Shown: piece after piece, positions 54,990 to 63,911 of the stretch
Position numbering within the stretch: position 1 is the first letter of the stretch
How the letters are laid out: every line of letters starts with the position of its first letter
Assembly: GCF_030814695.1 (NCBI RefSeq)
Contig: NZ_JAUSVL010000001.1
Coordinates: forward strand, 2,144,227 to 2,208,226
Length of the DNA: 64,000 nucleotides
Direction of reading: 5' to 3'
Source of the DNA: Oligosphaera ethanolica
Lineage (GTDB): Bacteria > Verrucomicrobiota > Lentisphaeria > Oligosphaerales > Oligosphaeraceae
The notes under the pieces: generated by a model
What the model was told of the DNA's origin: nothing
The model's input: only the letters and a program-made list of their open reading frames with translations
The model's database searches: none
Program-made: the position numbers and the translations under genes

Positions 54990-55125
54990 TCCGCCGACCT
55001 TTGCGGCAGCGGGTTTCATAGGAGTCATTGCTACTGGCGGTTCCCGCAACCGGTGGACCTAGGCGCGCTACCGGCAACCCCGGCCGGGAAACACACGCGC
55101 GGCGGTACCGGGATATGTCCTGTGC

Positions 55126-55347
55126 CTCGCGGCTTGCCGCGAGGGTAGCGGGTATGATCGCGGGCCGTCCTGGGCCTCGCGGCTTGCCGCGAGGGTAGCG
55201 GGTATGATCGCGCGCCGGCCTGTGCCTCGCGGCTTGCCGCGAGGGTAGCGGGTATGATCGCGGACCGTCCTGGGCCTCGCGGCTTGCCGCGAGGGTAGCG
55301 GGTATGATCGCGCGCCGGCCTGTGCCTCGCGGCTTGCCGCGAGGGTT
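55126..55347. repeat. 50-bp tandem repeat with palindromic core
   Basis: Copies start at 55126, 55176, 55226, 55276 and 55326 (the last partial). Each holds CTCGCGGCTTGCCGCGAG, a perfect palindrome with a TT centre, followed by GGTAGCGGGTATGATCGCG. The bases before the palindrome alternate TGTGC and TGGGC, so the array grew as 100-bp dimers. Confidence 0.93.
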
Positions 55348-55621
55348 AAGCCGAGGAACACTTGAATAGGATCGTTCGGGTGTCGCGCGAGAAGCTGGCC
55401 TCTCGTAACGGTGCGGGCGAGACGCCCGCACCACGGCCGGAACACGGGCAAGCGACAAGAAGAGCCGCCGGGACGGCGGCGCTCCCAGGAATCCCCAGAC
55501 GGCCCATGGGACCAGCTGGTATCAAGAGAAGGAATGATTGCGCCCCGTAGTAATCGGTCAATCATTGATACTGGCAATTCCCGCAACAGGCGAAGCGAGT
55601 AGCGACCGCGCGCCGTGACGC
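55348..55621. repeat. Composite repeat remnants before the CRISPR array
   Basis: It contains the GCCGCCGGGACGGCGGC palindrome with CTCCCAGGAAT, which also occurs inverted inside the element at 5564-6049, and a solitary left-type element end (TAATCGGTCAATCATTGATAC, about 55552-55572). No coding sequence is supported. The sequence abuts the distal end of the CRISPR array. Confidence 0.5.
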
Positions 55622-58600
55622 GTCACAATCGCCTTACGGCTTCAGTCCTGATTTGGACTGGAAGGAACCACAAAGGTCTCCCTGGAAGTGCTGTAGTCAC
55701 AATCGCCTTACGGCTTCAGTCCTGATTTGGACGATGGCTGCATTAATGGCTGAGATGAAAGCCATGCGGGAGGGTCACAATCGCCTTACGGCTTCAGTCC
55801 TGATTTGGACGGGAAGGGACCTACGGTGATTATGTATATGTCTGGGCTGAGTCACAATCGCCTTACGGCTTCAGTCCTGATTTGGACCGACTTGCGCTGG
55901 CGTATAGCGTTGCTGGCGGGTATGGGTCACAATCGCCTTACGGCTTCAGTCCTGATTTGGACCGACGTGACGGGCGATTTTTTCGACGTCGGTGAACATT
56001 TGGGTCACAATCGCCTTACGGCTTCAGTCCTGATTTGGACATACCCGCTGTGCCGAGCTTACCATACTCGGCATGATTGCGCGGTCACAATCGCCTTACG
56101 GCTTCAGTCCTGATTTGGACGCCGGCGTTGATGGCCGGTGATCAAGGCAGGAGCTTATGTCACAATCGCCTTACGGCTTCAGTCCTGATTTGGACTGGTG
56201 ACGACGAGCCAGAGCCGTCAAGGCATGCGCATGGTCACAATCGCCTTACGGCTTCAGTCCTGATTTGGACCTGGGTACCCGCCAAAGAAGAGACAACCTT
56301 CTCGCGTGATAAGTCACAATCGCCTTACGGCTTCAGTCCTGATTTGGACAAATAAGGTCTATAGCACAGACGAGCTTTTTGCCTGGATGAGTCACAATCG
56401 CCTTACGGCTTCAGTCCTGATTTGGACCAGGGGTGAGGGCACGTATGGCGACTATATCTATATGTCACAATCGCCTTACGGCTTCAGTCCTGATTTGGAC
56501 GACTATCGCGGGCTGCATGGAGTCGGAAAAAGCCGAACAAGCGTCACAATCGCCTTACGGCTTCAGTCCTGATTTGGACACAACAAGGAGGATTGAACAA
56601 TGGAAAAGCAAGTGAAGGTCACAATCGCCTTACGGCTTCAGTCCTGATTTGGACCAAATCTCAGAAGGTCATCAGTATGTTCCAGCGTCTTATTGGTCAC
56701 AATCGCCTTACGGCTTCAGTCCTGATTTGGACGGCTGCATGGAAAGCGAAAGAGCGGAACAAGCGTGCAGTCACAATCGCCTTACGGCTTCAGTCCTGAT
56801 TTGGACGGCTCCACGCCCATAACCGTCACCATAGGACAATTGCCGCCGTCACAATCGCCTTACGGCTTCAGTCCTGATTTGGACCGCGAAGAGGAGGAGT
56901 ATAACAGCTTCATCGAAAACGTATGTCACAATCGCCTTACGGCTTCAGTCCTGATTTGGACATGAGATTGTTATTGGGCTGAATGACAAAGACACCAAGC
57001 AGGTCACAATCGCCTTACGGCTTCAGTCCTGATTTGGACGGCCCTGGTGAACTTGGTAGAGCGGTTTAACTCCGCCGCCTGGTCACAATCGCCTTACGGC
57101 TTCAGTCCTGATTTGGACCCATGTATATCCACCAAGATAATCTATACTTCGAGCACAAGGGGTCACAATCGCCTTACGGCTTCAGTCCTGATTTGGACAG
57201 TGTTGCGTCAAGGTGGATACGGGTATGCGACCAAGAAAAGTCACAATCGCCTTACGGCTTCAGTCCTGATTTGGACTTGCACGCCCACGCCATTGCTTGC
57301 ATGACGATCGCGGCGTCACAATCGCCTTACGGCTTCAGTCCTGATTTGGACCAGTATGCGCTTGATTGCTGGAGACCGTCGAAGGAAGAGACGGTCACAA
57401 TCGCCTTACGGCTTCAGTCCTGATTTGGACAAACGCATACCCACCCCACCACTTCCCACCAAACGAACAAAGTCACAATCGCCTTACGGCTTCAGTCCTG
57501 ATTTGGACTTGAGCCTTACGGAATTCAAAACACAATTCGAGTTATTTGGTCACAATCGCCTTACGGCTTCAGTCCTGATTTGGACGGGTGCTTTTTGGCT
57601 GCTGAATAGGGGCGTTGACTTAGGTTGGTCACAATCGCCTTACGGCTTCAGTCCTGATTTGGACCCTTAACGCCGCGATCAAGATGGTTGTACGAGGATG
57701 GTACGGTCACAATCGCCTTACGGCTTCAGTCCTGATTTGGACTACGTTACTACGAACCCGCAACGCTACCGTTTGGTCAGGTCACAATCGCCTTACGGCT
57801 TCAGTCCTGATTTGGACTTGGCTCATCTGGAATGAAGAGGAGCAGGAGGCCCAAAGTCACAATCGCCTTACGGCTTCAGTCCTGATTTGGACGCGAGCAA
57901 GGCCGCAGGAATCCGCGAGCAGCTGGATCGGGTCACAATCGCCTTACGGCTTCAGTCCTGATTTGGACATAACCCAATCACGCCGGGGCCGCAACGCCCC
58001 GGCGGATGTCACAATCGCCTTACGGCTTCAGTCCTGATTTGGACTTGGCGATATTATTGATTTCTGGTTGGATGTTGAAGTCACAATCGCCTTACGGCTT
58101 CAGTCCTGATTTGGACTTTGTGTTGATGGCTGCTACTGAATATGATTTTGCTCGGTCACAATCGCCTTACGGCTTCAGTCCTGATTTGGACATACCGGCG
58201 GGGCTCTGCGCATCTACGACTACAAGAACGGCGGTCACAATCGCCTTACGGCTTCAGTCCTGATTTGGACGGCAGCTGGGTGATGGTCCTTTGGCGACGT
58301 TTGGTGGGTCACAATCGCCTTACGGCTTCAGTCCTGATTTGGACGCCGGAAAGAAGCTGGAGGAGCTTATTAAACGGCATGACTAGTCACAATCGCCTTA
58401 CGGCTTCAGTCCTGATTTGGACGGCTATGGGATATAGCATGGAATACTGCATATGATGCAATAGTCACAATCGCCTTACGGCTTCAGTCCTGATTTGGAC
58501 AAACAACTACCAAATCGCAACGTATCATCGGAATGTTTGGTCACAATCGCCTTACGGCTTCAGTCCTGATTTGGACGCGGCAATGGCCTTCGCAATGCGG

Positions 58601-59502
58601 TAAAGGTCATTGCTTCGTCACAATCGCCTTACGGCTTCAGTCCTGATTTGGACGCCTAGGCAAGGCTGCGAAAATTATTGTGCTATTTTTCTCGTCACAA
58701 TCGCCTTACGGCTTCAGTCCTGATTTGGACCTTCAAGCAGATTCAAGACCAAGGCGCCAGGATCAAAAAGGGGTCACAATCGCCTTACGGCTTCAGTCCT
58801 GATTTGGACCGCCGCTGGCGTTGTCGATAGTGGCAACATACGCGGCATGTCACAATCGCCTTACGGCTTCAGTCCTGATTTGGACAGGCACTCGGCATCA
58901 GCGAGGACAGCATGAAACGCCTGCTGGTCACAATCGCCTTACGGCTTCAGTCCTGATTTGGACATGGAAAGAGCAAGGATAAAAACGGCAATGGCAAAGG
59001 TCAGGTCACAATCGCCTTACGGCTTCAGTCCTGATTTGGACGCAGCCACCATCACGCCGGAACAACTCGCAACGCTAGGGTTGTCACAATCGCCTTACGG
59101 CTTCAGTCCTGATTTGGACCTCTGGAGAGAGATTGTTAACGCCGAGAAACTTATAGAGGTCACAATCGCCTTACGGCTTCAGTCCTGATTTGGACCACCA
59201 GTAGACCGCTGGAGTAATGCACAGCTACTCGTTTACGTCACAATCGCCTTACGGCTTCAGTCCTGATTTGGACAGGTCCACAATATCCTATATTTGATTA
59301 GGATGGTGTCGTCACAATCGCCTTACGGCTTCAGTCCTGATTTGGACCTACACTAACGGGAACGCTAAACGGTAACGCACTATTAGCGTGTCACAATCGC
59401 CTTACGGCTTCAGTCCTGATTTGGACAAATTGGTTACATGACCGTTAAGCTGCATGAGCACGGCCGTCACAATCGCCTTACGGCTTCAGTCCTGATTTGG
59501 AC
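55622..59502 (-). CRISPR. CRISPR array, 51 repeats of 37 bp and 50 spacers
   Basis: The 37-bp repeat reads GTCACAATCGCC... to ...GATTTGGAC on the plus strand. All copies I compared are identical and periods run from 72 to 80 bp, giving spacers of 35-43 bp. Transcription is inferred to be from the minus strand: cas genes and a leader-like gap lie to the right. In that direction a GCC-GTAA-GGC hairpin sits near the 3' end, and the repeat ends in ATTGTGAC, similar to the ATTGAAAC 5' handle of type I/III crRNAs. Neither end shows repeat decay. Three spacer pairs encode near-identical peptides (see findings). The long forward open frames running through it are artefacts of the repeat. Confidence 0.98.
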
Positions 59503-59734
59503 TGTTGTGGATGTACTATAGTGCAGGATAGGGAAATAGGGATGCTGATCGGCGGGGGGGGTAAAAATGGGGTCCATTTGGTGTTCACGTGGTAGTAGAA
59601 AATGGCGATTAATAGTCATAAGTGTTTGCCTGTACGTTGTCGGCGGCGCTTCTGCGTGGCGTGGTGATTTTTTTCTGCCGCCGACGAGGTGTTATTGGGG
59701 TTTCTGGTCATGCTGGGATTGTGGTTGTGATTCA
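59503..59734 (-). promoter_or_regulatory. Putative CRISPR leader
   Basis: These 232 bases separate the last repeat from the cas2 stop codon and would be the leader if the array is read from the minus strand. They hold an eight-G run (about 59549-59556, plus strand) and an inverted repeat TGTCGGCGGC...GCCGCCGAC (about 59638-59688). I see no clear promoter. Confidence 0.55.
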
Positions 59735-60112
59735 TCAGATGATGTAGCAGATTGCCTTACGTGGCCGGGAGATTTTTCCGAGGACCTCGACTTGTTTGAC
59801 GCATGCTTTGCAGATTTGGTAGGCGACGACGCAGTCATCGTCTTCTTCGATGACGCCCATGAGTTCGAGCCAGAAGTCTTGGAAGCGTTCATCGGGCAGA
59901 TCGCATTCGAAGACGCTTTTTTCGACTCTGACGCCATAGAGTTCGCAGATTTTAGCGACCTTGCGGAGGCGTTTATCGTCGGTGATGTCATAAGCGACGA
60001 TACGGAGCATATTTCGGTACTCCCAGTCGGCGGGTGTAGACTCGATGTGGTCGGCGGGATAGAACCGTTCGTACCACTGCACGGGTTGTTGCCAGAGATC
60101 GTCGTCCATCAT
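59735..60112 (-). CDS. cas2: Cas2 with N-terminal extension
   Basis: From residue 35 the protein reads MLRIVAYDITDDKRLRKVAK, the ferredoxin-fold start of Cas2 with the conserved Asp after strand 1, followed by YGVRVEKSVFECDL. The core is of normal length (91 residues). The preceding 34 residues are W- and acid-rich (for example WYERFYPADHIE); third positions are GC-rich as in real genes here, and the first ATG overlaps the cas1 stop in ATGA, so the extension is probably translated. A GGGAG nine bases before M35 (60010) makes the short form possible. Cas2 bridges two Cas1 dimers in the spacer integrase. Confidence 0.93.
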   Translation of the reverse strand: MMDDDLWQQPVQWYERFYPADHIESTPADWEYRNMLRIVAYDITDDKRLRKVAKICELYGVRVEKSVFECDLPDERFQDFWLELMGVIEEDDDCVVAYQICKACVKQVEVLGKISRPRKAICYII

Positions 60113-61131
60113 GGCATCATGAAGAATTGTGGTTCCTGGTTGCTTTCGACGGTCTGCGAGATGGCATTGACCATATTGCGGATGACTCTGCGGAAGGTCA
60201 CTCTGCTGCCCCCCTTGGACTCGGCGAAGAACCGCTCCATATACTGCTCGTATTCGCAGAAGAAGATTTTTCTGCTGTCGGATTTGAGGTAAACACCGCC
60301 GTCATCGGCGTGATTTTCAAAGTGTTCTTTTTTCAATAATTTATGATTGAGCAGATTCAGCGCGAGCAGATCACACAGCGGCGCGCGTAGGGGCTCGACG
60401 AGATCGAGAGCGAGTGACGGCCGGCCGTAGCTGATATCATGCAGGAAGCCGAGGCAGGGATCGAGGCCGGCGCAGCGGATTTCGGCGTCGATTTCGGCAC
60501 CGACGATCGTGTAGGTCCATGACAGGATGGCGTTGGCGGCGTCGCGGGGTGGTCGGCGACTGCGGCTGGTGAAAGGCAGGTCTTCCGGGAAGAAGGCGCC
60601 GAGGCGCCGGAAGTAGCATGCCGAGGCGATGCCTTCGTAGCCGCGAATGGCGGCGACGGTGTCAGCGTCCATGACTTTTTGTGCGTAGCCCAACAGGGAG
60701 TTACAGGCGTCCATCTGCTCGACGTCTTGGGATTGTTCGCGATTGGCGGCCAAGCGTTGCAGGACTCGGCGCATATTGCGAATTTTGGCGTAGACCAGTT
60801 GGCGGGCGATCATGACGGCGAGAGTGGCTGACCGCGCCGCGTCGTACTGGCGGAGGCGGCGCAGGGCGCTGCCATTGCTGTTGGGCACCATCGAGCTGAC
60901 CCAACGGCCGTGAGCCGAGAGAAAGTACACCGGGATATTGGCGTACATGAATTTGTGCAGGAGCTGCATGCTGACCCTGGGCGTGCCGATGACCACCACG
61001 CGGTCAATATCGAAGATCGGCACCGTAAAGGCATCGACATCGTCATTGGTGTAGTCGAAGCGACTCAAGGCGACGCGGCGGTCGTTCAGGCGGGCATCGA
61101 CGCCCTGGCTATTCAGATAGAGGGTTGGCAC
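60109..61131 (-). CDS. cas1: Cas1 integrase
   Basis: The 340-residue protein has the Cas1 N-terminal beta-domain (LYLNSQGVDARL) and the alpha-helical catalytic domain with metal ligands E166 (GYEGIASACYF), H231 (GFLHDISYGRPSLALDL) and D243, twelve residues apart as usual. It integrates new spacers with Cas2. There is no fused reverse transcriptase or Cas4. It ends by overlapping cas2 and starts 22 bases after the CARF-HEPN gene. Confidence 0.97.
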   Translation of the reverse strand: MPTLYLNSQGVDARLNDRRVALSRFDYTNDDVDAFTVPIFDIDRVVVIGTPRVSMQLLHKFMYANIPVYFLSAHGRWVSSMVPNSNGSALRRLRQYDAARSATLAVMIARQLVYAKIRNMRRVLQRLAANREQSQDVEQMDACNSLLGYAQKVMDADTVAAIRGYEGIASACYFRRLGAFFPEDLPFTSRSRRPPRDAANAILSWTYTIVGAEIDAEIRCAGLDPCLGFLHDISYGRPSLALDLVEPLRAPLCDLLALNLLNHKLLKKEHFENHADDGGVYLKSDSRKIFFCEYEQYMERFFAESKGGSRVTFRRVIRNMVNAISQTVESNQEPQFFMMP

Positions 61132-61153: not shown

Positions 61154-62383
61154 TTAGGGTCTTGGCTGCATATCTTCGTAGCGCGTAAAGAGATCATCGG
61201 CGATTCTGCCGAGCACCTCGCGGAAGCGATTTTCGTCTTGAAGCAGCCCCTGCACTTCGCGGCTGATTGCCGAACGCGTTTCCGGCGAAGATGCGTGGGC
61301 GAGGCAGTTGCGGAGTTCGTTGAGGAGTTCGTCGGTGTGGTCGGTGTCGCGATTGAGCTCGCTGAGTTTTTTGTCTCGGGCGGCCTGATTGTGCTGTTGG
61401 TTTGGCGGCAGTGCCAGGGACACGCGCGCTTCGCGCAGGAGGATGACGCAGCGCAGGAAATCGCCGGCACGGAGCGCGGCCTTGGCGGAGAGGATTTGCC
61501 AGGACGCCAGGTCGTCGCCCTTGCGCCAGTTGAATTTGCGTTGCAGGGTCGTGCGATAGAGCTCTGCGACTGGATCGGCAAAGGACTGTTCGAGCAGGAC
61601 GTCAATGTCTTTGGCGCTTTCACGGGCGGCGACGGTTTGATTGGTGCGCAAATGCAGACTGTGCGCCGAGAGGGCTTGCGCCAGCTCGGGGCGTTCGGTC
61701 ATGAGTTCGGCCAGGGCGTCATAGCGGCCCGTGCCTTCGGCTATGGGCAGAGTGCTGAGCCATTTGAACAACTCCAGCACGTAGTCCAGGCGAATCACGG
61801 GCGCGGTAAGCACGCCAGCATTGCTCTCGGCGAGATCGGCGGCGCCATAGAAGAGGCCGGTGACGCGCGCTTGGCGCACTTGCTGGAGGTAGATCATCGC
61901 CAGCAATTCCAACAGCGGCAGAATGCGCAGACCGTGGGTGACATCAAGACAGACGGAGGCCTTTTCGGGCGTTTCCGCAGCCATGATGCGGAGAATCTCG
62001 GCCTGCTCGACGGCATTTCGGCCCAGGGGAATGAGTTGGCAAGAGATGTCGTAATGCAATACGGCGCTGAGTTCGCGGCTGAGTTCGCGGAGGGTCTGCG
62101 GCTGGACGGCGCCGGCGTCGGTTTCCGTCAGGACTTTGTCGGCCAGCTCGGTATTGTCCATCGGCGTCATTTCGAGCAAGGCGTCCCACATGGAGGAGGC
62201 CGTGCCCATGACCAGAATGCGTTCCGGCGCTTGTTGCAGCTTTTCGCAGTGCTTCAGCAGAGCCAGGAGGAAAAAGCTGCTGGTGAAAGTGAAGCCATCC
62301 GCAAACTGGTAGCTGATTTCGCGGTAACGGCCGTTGTCACTTTTGCGTGCTTTGCCGAGAGTGGTGATCAGAATGGACGACAT
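61154..62383 (-). CDS. CARF-HEPN type III accessory ribonuclease (Csx1/TM1812-like)
   Basis: The 409-residue protein starts MSSILITTLGKARK, as in Csx-type CARF domains. It has the diagnostic DxTHG motif at 147-151 (LDVTHGLRILPLL) and a predicted helical C-terminal region. The HEPN RNase motif R-x4-H is seen at R358-H363 (RNCLAH). Such proteins are activated by cyclic oligoadenylates made by Cas10 and then cut RNA non-specifically. Its presence is the main evidence that the locus is type III. It lies 169 bases after the Lon-CARF gene and directly before cas1 on the same strand. Confidence 0.9.
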   Translation of the reverse strand: MSSILITTLGKARKSDNGRYREISYQFADGFTFTSSFFLLALLKHCEKLQQAPERILVMGTASSMWDALLEMTPMDNTELADKVLTETDAGAVQPQTLRELSRELSAVLHYDISCQLIPLGRNAVEQAEILRIMAAETPEKASVCLDVTHGLRILPLLELLAMIYLQQVRQARVTGLFYGAADLAESNAGVLTAPVIRLDYVLELFKWLSTLPIAEGTGRYDALAELMTERPELAQALSAHSLHLRTNQTVAARESAKDIDVLLEQSFADPVAELYRTTLQRKFNWRKGDDLASWQILSAKAALRAGDFLRCVILLREARVSLALPPNQQHNQAARDKKLSELNRDTDHTDELLNELRNCLAHASSPETRSAISREVQGLLQDENRFREVLGRIADDLFTRYEDMQPRP

Positions 62384-62552: not shown

Positions 62553-63911
62553 TCACCGCCACACGGCGCTGCGGAGTTCGGCCAGAGAGGGCAGGGGGCC
62601 GGTGAATTGCCGTGGAGCGCTACCATAGAGATACCCCCAGTTCACGCGTTGGGGTTGGGGGCAGTTGTTGCCGTGGACTTTGCCATTGCGGGGTAGATCG
62701 ACGGGGCCCTGCGCGAAATCAATCACTTCCAGCTCATCGGGTTCAGCGTTGATATCGCGGTAGATCATTTTCATGCCCTGGGCTTTTGCTGCGAGCATGG
62801 CCGCCTGCCCCATCAAGCGATTGCCGCCCGTGATATTGACCAGCGCAGTCGCTGGGTCGCGCTGGCCAAACTGGTTGCGCAGCAGGACTTCACTCAAGGC
62901 CAAGTGATTGGAGGGTATTTCCTGGGTCGTGACGATAAGCGCGACGTGCTTTTGGTCAGCAAAGAACGCCTGCAGGAGATCGGCCTGCGGCTTGGTCTGT
63001 GGCGAATAGTACAAACACAGCTCGCGTGGTTGGATCAGCAGCGGCACACTCAGCGCGGGGGGGAGCGCGCCGCCCACGAGCTGGTGGAGCACGCTTACAG
63101 ATGTGGGAAACTCAAAGTGCTGCTCGAAGACACCGTGGTCGCGAACGTAAATCACGGCGTCGCGCAGACTGCTGGCGGCATAGACGGCGACGGCGGGGTT
63201 CCGGGCGGCGGCGGCAACGGCGAATTCCTGCCAGACGTCGTTGGGGACCAGCCAGTAGCGAGTGGTTCTAGCCGCAAGCTCGGCCTTGTTACCAATAGCA
63301 ACTGAAAGGACATCCCCTTTGCCATCACAGGCGCCGCTGACCGCCCAATAGCTGCCTAGGCGCACGCGCATCGCGCGGTCAGCAATGGCGATTTTGGCCA
63401 TCTCGGCGGCGAGCTGCCAGGAACGGCCCTCCAACGGCGCCGCCGACCAGGACGGCGGCTGGACGAGCAGGCTGCAGTCGGTGGCGACATTCTCGCTGAA
63501 GGCCAGCAGGCGACGGGAGTCCTGGCGCAGCCGGTGGGCAAGAACATAGATTCTCGCCAGTTCGGATGGCTGGCCATTGCAGCCGGCCAGAGGAAAGACG
63601 GCCATGGCGGCGTGGTGCGCGTGTTCGAGGAGCTCGCGCAGACTGTAGTCAAGATGGGGAAACGGCCTGACCGCCAGCAGCCAGGAGGGCAAACGGTCAT
63701 CCGTAACGGCGTCAAGCGCGATGGCCTGCCATAAAGCCAATTCAGCCAGGAGCGCCTGGGCGCGAATATCGAGCTCGCTGACGCGCGGCGATGAATAACA
63801 CGCACGGAAATCCCAGCTAGGAGACGGCTCGTGCTCGAAGCATTCCCAGAGCATGAGCTGGGCGTCGCCCATCAAGAGCTTCTGCAGCGATGGCAGGACT
63901 TGTGCGTTCAT
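62553..63911 (-). CDS. Lon-protease-like domain fused to C-terminal CARF domain
   Basis: The 452-residue protein has three parts. Residues 1-150 are helical with no recognised motif. Residues about 160-260 resemble the Lon (S16) proteolytic domain: GRSWQLAAEMAKIAI would hold the catalytic Ser (S164, as in Lon GPSAG), and AVSGACDGKGDVLSVAIGNKAELAA the catalytic Lys (K209). The Ser-Lys spacing of 45 is close to 43 in E. coli Lon, and LVPNDVWQEF matches the Lon VLIPKEN strand. Residues about 285-400 look like a Card1/DUF1887-type CARF (LCLYYSPQTKPQADLL, then ALVNITGGNRLMGQAAMLA). It would be a protease switched on by cyclic oligoadenylate, like CalpL. The start overlaps the preceding stop in ATGA. 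No AAA+ ATPase part is present. Confidence 0.75.
   Translation of the reverse strand: MNAQVLPSLQKLLMGDAQLMLWECFEHEPSPSWDFRACYSSPRVSELDIRAQALLAELALWQAIALDAVTDDRLPSWLLAVRPFPHLDYSLRELLEHAHHAAMAVFPLAGCNGQPSELARIYVLAHRLRQDSRRLLAFSENVATDCSLLVQPPSWSAAPLEGRSWQLAAEMAKIAIADRAMRVRLGSYWAVSGACDGKGDVLSVAIGNKAELAARTTRYWLVPNDVWQEFAVAAAARNPAVAVYAASSLRDAVIYVRDHGVFEQHFEFPTSVSVLHQLVGGALPPALSVPLLIQPRELCLYYSPQTKPQADLLQAFFADQKHVALIVTTQEIPSNHLALSEVLLRNQFGQRDPATALVNITGGNRLMGQAAMLAAKAQGMKMIYRDINAEPDELEVIDFAQGPVDLPRNGKVHGNNCPQPQRVNWGYLYGSAPRQFTGPLPSLAELRSAVWR

Follow-up and report, generated by a model that had tools for sequence, protein, structure and literature searches.

The type III-B locus and its array

The window, a stretch of 64,000 nucleotides from Oligosphaera ethanolica, contains a CRISPR array (55622-59502, minus strand) in which 51 perfect repeats of 37 nt alternate with 50 spacers of 35-43 nt. 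The repeat reads GTCCAAATCAGGACTGAAGCCGTAAGGCGATTGTGAC on the minus strand. Spacers are numbered from the left end of the array, as in an earlier note on this DNA, and all spacer coding frames given below are on the plus strand. Just left of the array, at 55119-55350, is a series of GC-rich tandem repeats of 50 bp, whose core (CCTCGCGGCTTGCCGCGAGG) resembles a hairpin.

On its other side the array is flanked by a probable leader (59503-59734, minus strand), so designated from its position between the array and cas2; no promoter consensus was found in it. The next genes are cas2 (59735-60112; PF09827, 1e-19), cas1 (60109-61131; PF01867, 6.6e-77), encoding a protein of 340 aa without a reverse transcriptase domain, a gene for a Csx1-type CARF-HEPN ancillary protein (61154-62383; TIGR02221; CARF_HEPN, 1.2e-85), and a gene for a second CARF-domain protein of 452 aa (62553-63911). 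Family matches of the latter are weak and confined to its C-terminal part, with no named domain in the N-terminal part. RNA cleavage and cyclic oligoadenylate signalling may occur in this system, the one sign of them being the presence of the CARF-HEPN Csx1.

The locus of the array is of type III-B (Cmr). Upstream of the cas1 and CARF genes, beyond the window, lie cmr1, cmr6, cmr5, cmr4, cmr3 and cas10, with profile matches for Cmr3 (6.7e-39), Cmr4 (2.1e-58), Cmr5 (8.4e-17), Cmr6 (5e-26) and Cmr1 (1.7e-17). The Cas10/Cmr2 large subunit (L009:12594-15335) matches Cas10 with 4.9e-89 and Cas10b with 1.2e-67. Elsewhere in the genome there is a second, diverged cas1-like gene (G000:C1:509170-509814), and a second CRISPR system may be present.

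All cas, cmr and CARF genes of the locus are on the minus strand. On the same strand, the repeat folds into one or more hairpins and leaves a 9-nt 3' tail, GAUUGUGAC, compatible with a crRNA 5' tag of 8 nt (AUUGUGAC). Because of this gene direction and the repeat fold with its tail, the array is likely transcribed on the minus strand, with the leader on the cas2 side, as far as gene order and predicted folding can tell. With transcription in this direction, the crRNAs would be complementary to the plus strand, on which the spacers read in the coding sense, and hence probably to phage mRNA.

Spacer pairs that share a peptide

The earlier note had drawn attention to spacers 3 and 11, which encode the same peptide with synonymous codons. 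Spacer 3 (55811-55850) codes for EGTYGDYVYVWA and reads GAA GGG ACC TAC GGT GAT TAT GTA TAT (EGTYGDYVY) from position 55813. In the same plus frame, spacer 11 (56428-56463; RGEGTYGDYIY) reads GAG GGC ACG TAT GGC GAC TAT ATC TAT (EGTYGDYIY). Positions, peptides and the count of seven differing codons out of nine proved exact on recheck. Six of the changes affect the third base only, as had been stated, and the seventh, the exchange of V for I, changes two bases (GTA/ATC, codon positions 1 and 3). Altogether 19 of 27 bases are identical. The two spacers are offset by six bases, and the peptide match extends over all of their overlap.

A chance match had to be considered, since spacers are short and the comparison involves many frames. 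We compared all spacer pairs in all frames and set the results against shuffled spacer arrays. The 3/11 pair has a BLOSUM score of 52, a value reached in none of 158 shuffled sets, in which the best pair scored 29.8 on average and 41 at most. For full-overlap pairs, the best score in 503 shuffled sets had a mean of 26.9 and a maximum of 38. Together with the location of both spacers on one phage ORF, in a contig matched by ten further spacers (see below), these values refute a chance origin of the match, to which we give practically no credence.

The scan also found pairs that the earlier note had left out. Spacers 12 (56501-56542; TIAGCMESEKAEQ) and 15 (56733-56769; GCMESERAEQAC) share the peptide GCMESEKAEQ/GCMESERAEQ, including a TCG/AGC serine codon swap, and with a score of 50 this pair is of equal strength. 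Two weaker pairs also match across their whole overlap, namely spacers 9 (56271-56312; WVPAKEETTFSRD) and 23 (57352-57393; QYALDCWRPSKEET), with a score of 36, and spacers 14 (56655-56695; KSQKVISMFQRLI) and 38 (58501-58539; TTTKSQRIIGMF), with a score of 34. In total, four full-overlap pairs score 34 or higher, while 0.028 are expected per array. Pairs 3/11 and 12/15 are certainly real; pairs 9/23 and 14/38 are likely real as a group, each being weaker when taken singly. A minus-strand pair, 18/46 (score 34), was dropped because both of its spacers have clear plus-frame matches elsewhere on the phage contig described below.

A phage lineage targeted by at least twelve spacers

Searches at the nucleotide level did not lead to a target. 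No exact protospacer for any spacer was found among GenBank phages, plasmids and IMG/VR, and BLASTN of the array against phages and plasmids returned nothing usable. At the protein level, strict peptide patterns for pairs 3/11 and 12/15 had no match in viral contigs, and a PHROGs scan of single padded peptides had none either. The shorter pattern GTYGDY[VI]Y retrieved three unrelated proteins only. Patterns for pairs 14/38 and 9/23 gave chance matches in short ORFs, apart from a 123-aa phage protein (L021) containing WCPSKEETT. This protein resembles spacers 9 and 23, a likeness that is unproven, the match being too short to decide. Pattern, Cas1 and repeat searches of genome contigs and relatives did not turn up any related array or prophage.

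The pattern YGDY[VI]Y[x]W, in contrast, identified a siphovirus-like, uncultivated viral contig of 74,240 bases, IMGVR_UViG_3300029822_000004 (L029), positions on which are given below with the prefix G199. The contig encodes a terminase, portal, major head protein, phage DNA polymerase, clamp loader, DnaB-like helicase, sigma factor and an anti-restriction gene. Between this terminase and its counterpart in the nearest GenBank phage, identity is only 36%. A 235-aa ORF (G199:3050-3757) reads RGDSTYGDYIYLWDG, with the site context VYRRRGDSTYGDYIYLWDGCEC. Spacers 3 and 11 align in frame and in sense orientation at the same codons of this ORF (G199:3348-3387 and G199:3357-3392, respectively, both minus strand), spacer 11 with 29 of 36 bases identical. 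Homologous genes at one codon site were what the earlier note had expected of a database search, and both spacers indeed meet at this single ORF.

The 27-base core distinguishes three alleles. While spacers 3 and 11 share 19 bases, the contig shares 17 with spacer 3 and 23 with spacer 11, differing from them at 10 and 4 positions, respectively. All three differ from each other, and there are therefore at least three diverged versions of this site. The contig represents a relative, and neither spacer was actually taken from it. Spacers 3 and 11 are two diverged alleles of one coding site in one phage lineage. The reading of one coding site in two diverged phages, put forward in the earlier note, is borne out for this pair by a related phage gene, not by the exact source phages. 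Because the alleles differ and the spacers are offset by six bases, the two would have been captured in separate events. Independent capture, also claimed before, accordingly holds as a deduction from alleles and offset.

Both alleles might instead have come from a single phage genome in which the gene is present as two paralogues, with capture during one or two infections. Such an arrangement could exist in phages that have not been sequenced. However, the related contig has one such site, and the same ORF is the best match of both spacers. Moreover, the unrelated pair 12/15 shows the same pattern and would need a second duplicated gene. We regard paralogous copies as very improbable.

The contig had been picked by the YGDY[VI]Y.W peptide alone, and all spacers were then compared with it. 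Ten further spacers match other genes of the contig. Spacer 18 (56962-57002; EIVIGLNDKDTKQ) encodes a peptide that recurs unchanged in ORF G199:5823-6161, with 37 of 41 bases identical, and spacer 36 (58345-58385; AGKKLEELIKRHD) matches ORF G199:1018-1227 at 36 of 41 bases. Spacer 14, one member of the 14/38 pair, corresponds to ORF G199:2281-2460 (EKEKVISMFNRLV), spacer 35 (58271-58307; QLGDGPLATFG) to ORF G199:6945-7358, and spacer 41 (58731-58772; FKQIQDQGARIKK) to the anti-restriction ORF G199:9262-10245. The first codons of the helicase ORF G199:16375-17883 are matched by spacer 20 (57119-57161; MYIHQDNLYFEHK). Spacer 13 (56580-56617) contains a Shine-Dalgarno-like AGGAGG and an ATG and agrees with the start site of ORF G199:10880-11389 at 31 of 38 bases, where shuffled spacers reach at most 25.

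The remaining three, spacers 45, 46 and 47 (59042-59236), are neighbours in the array and all match a single 261-aa ORF (G199:158-943), which suggests that they were acquired one after another from this gene, perhaps during a single infection. Three given spacers would be neighbours by chance with a probability of 0.0024.

Against the contig, spacers 3 (score 53), 11, 18, 46, 47, 20 and 36 outscored all 25,800 shuffled spacers, and spacers 41, 35, 45 and 14 had p values of 0.001 to 0.004 each. Differences between spacers and contig number 34, 17 and 68 at codon positions 1, 2 and 3, respectively. Twelve other viral contigs fetched by similar patterns showed no comparable extra spacer matches. 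At least 12 of the 50 spacers of the array target this phage lineage. For spacers 12, 15, 9 and 23 no target was located.

Strand and regional bias, and the origin of the overlapping alleles

The mapped spacers share two further properties that the earlier note had not covered, a strand bias and a restriction to one phage region. All 12 are in the coding sense (p 0.0005), with target genes on both strands of the contig. All 12 also lie between positions 434 and 16,415, confined to the first 16.4 kb of the 74-kb contig (p 1.4e-8). Small ORFs occupy this region together with the sigma factor and anti-restriction genes, and the first codons of the helicase mark its end. None of the 12 falls in the replication genes beyond it or in structural genes. 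Judging from its gene content, situated beside the replication genes, the region is probably expressed early. Conservation of only some genes between the contig and the real targets could account for part of the regional bias.

A uniform coding sense would arise directly if spacers were taken from phage mRNA by a reverse transcriptase, and the genome contains nine reverse transcriptase genes. One match lies just left of the window (G000:C1:2140689-2141315), and there are eight other places; eight of the nine are alike, with open frames of 412-432 aa, and these are probably mobile group II introns. The 340-aa Cas1, however, has the Cas_Cas1 domain only. There is no reverse transcriptase match at the cas locus, the nearest being about 59 kb from the array, and most of the genes are near-identical copies resembling group II introns. 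In addition, the same strand bias arises by selection alone in Thermus (PMC7515739). As Cas1 lacks the domain and the reverse transcriptases of the genome lie elsewhere, acquisition from mRNA appears most unlikely.

We consider it likely that the array arose through repeated infection by one diverging phage lineage, combined with selection that favoured spacers directed at a short transcribed region, probably an early one. The host would have met members of the lineage many times, and Cas1-Cas2 would have taken up fragments with little sequence preference. Survival would have been restricted to cells in which the newly added spacer yielded a crRNA that was complementary to a phage transcript of this short, probably early-expressed region. 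Because the protective window would be small and the phages would have kept diverging by silent changes, the array would come to hold different alleles of the same codons. With each additional allele, pairing would be regained for a variant poorly matched by an older spacer.

Certain short phage sites might, beyond such regional selection, be taken up, or confer protection, far more often than their neighbours. The two certain and two likely overlapping pairs point in this direction, as does the match of array neighbours 45-47 to one gene. If 17 spacers stem from the lineage and fall within 16 kb, 0.28 overlaps of at least eight codons are expected, and the probabilities of at least two and at least four are 0.03 and 0.0002, respectively. 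On the other hand, 2.5 overlaps are expected if all 50 spacers are from the lineage, and the paired spacers are offset and have no common ends. We think preferred sites unlikely, and similarly doubt the broader proposition that type III immunity repeatedly converges on the same short sites beyond regional chance, with the array as an allele library following silent escape at fixed codons. Four overlapping pairs within 16 kb agree with regional selection, the explanation that we favour, only if the lineage supplied most of the 50 spacers.

This single array preserves, as a natural record, what were probably many encounters between a type III system and a diverging phage lineage. It also shows that spacers without a nucleotide match in the databases can be placed in a phage family if they are translated and several matches on one contig are required. 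Such an approach could help with orphan spacers, which account for a large fraction of spacers. Where alleles overlap within an array, one can also measure how far apart two protospacers must be for a second spacer to be worth keeping.

The mechanism is ordinary and the kind of event is known; the array is an unusually clear natural case. In Thermus, type III arrays served by a plain Cas1 come to contain spacers of the early phage region and of one strand, complementary to transcripts, through selection, as no others protect the cell (PMC7515739). The array described here agrees with this laboratory result in strand and regional bias: Cas1 is likewise plain, and the spacers are concentrated in a region that is probably early and on what is probably the transcript-targeting strand. 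The Thermus experiments used laboratory infection with defined phages, whereas the present array is a natural record of 50 spacers that includes several diverged alleles from an uncultured lineage. Type III spacers in general prefer the coding strand, with 65% on average and 88% in Moraxella III-B (Vink 2021, PMC8482600). The preference is the same here, but extends to 12 of 12 mapped spacers, which were found at the protein level via a diverged relative. Finally, in a Synechococcus hot-spring mat, viral sequences at the site of a spacer differ silently or conservatively, down to 70% nucleotide identity (Heidelberg 2009, PMC2612747). Divergence at the spacer site is of the same silent or conservative kind in both cases, but the mat variants were present in viral reads, whereas in the present case a single array has stored the two variants as spacers.
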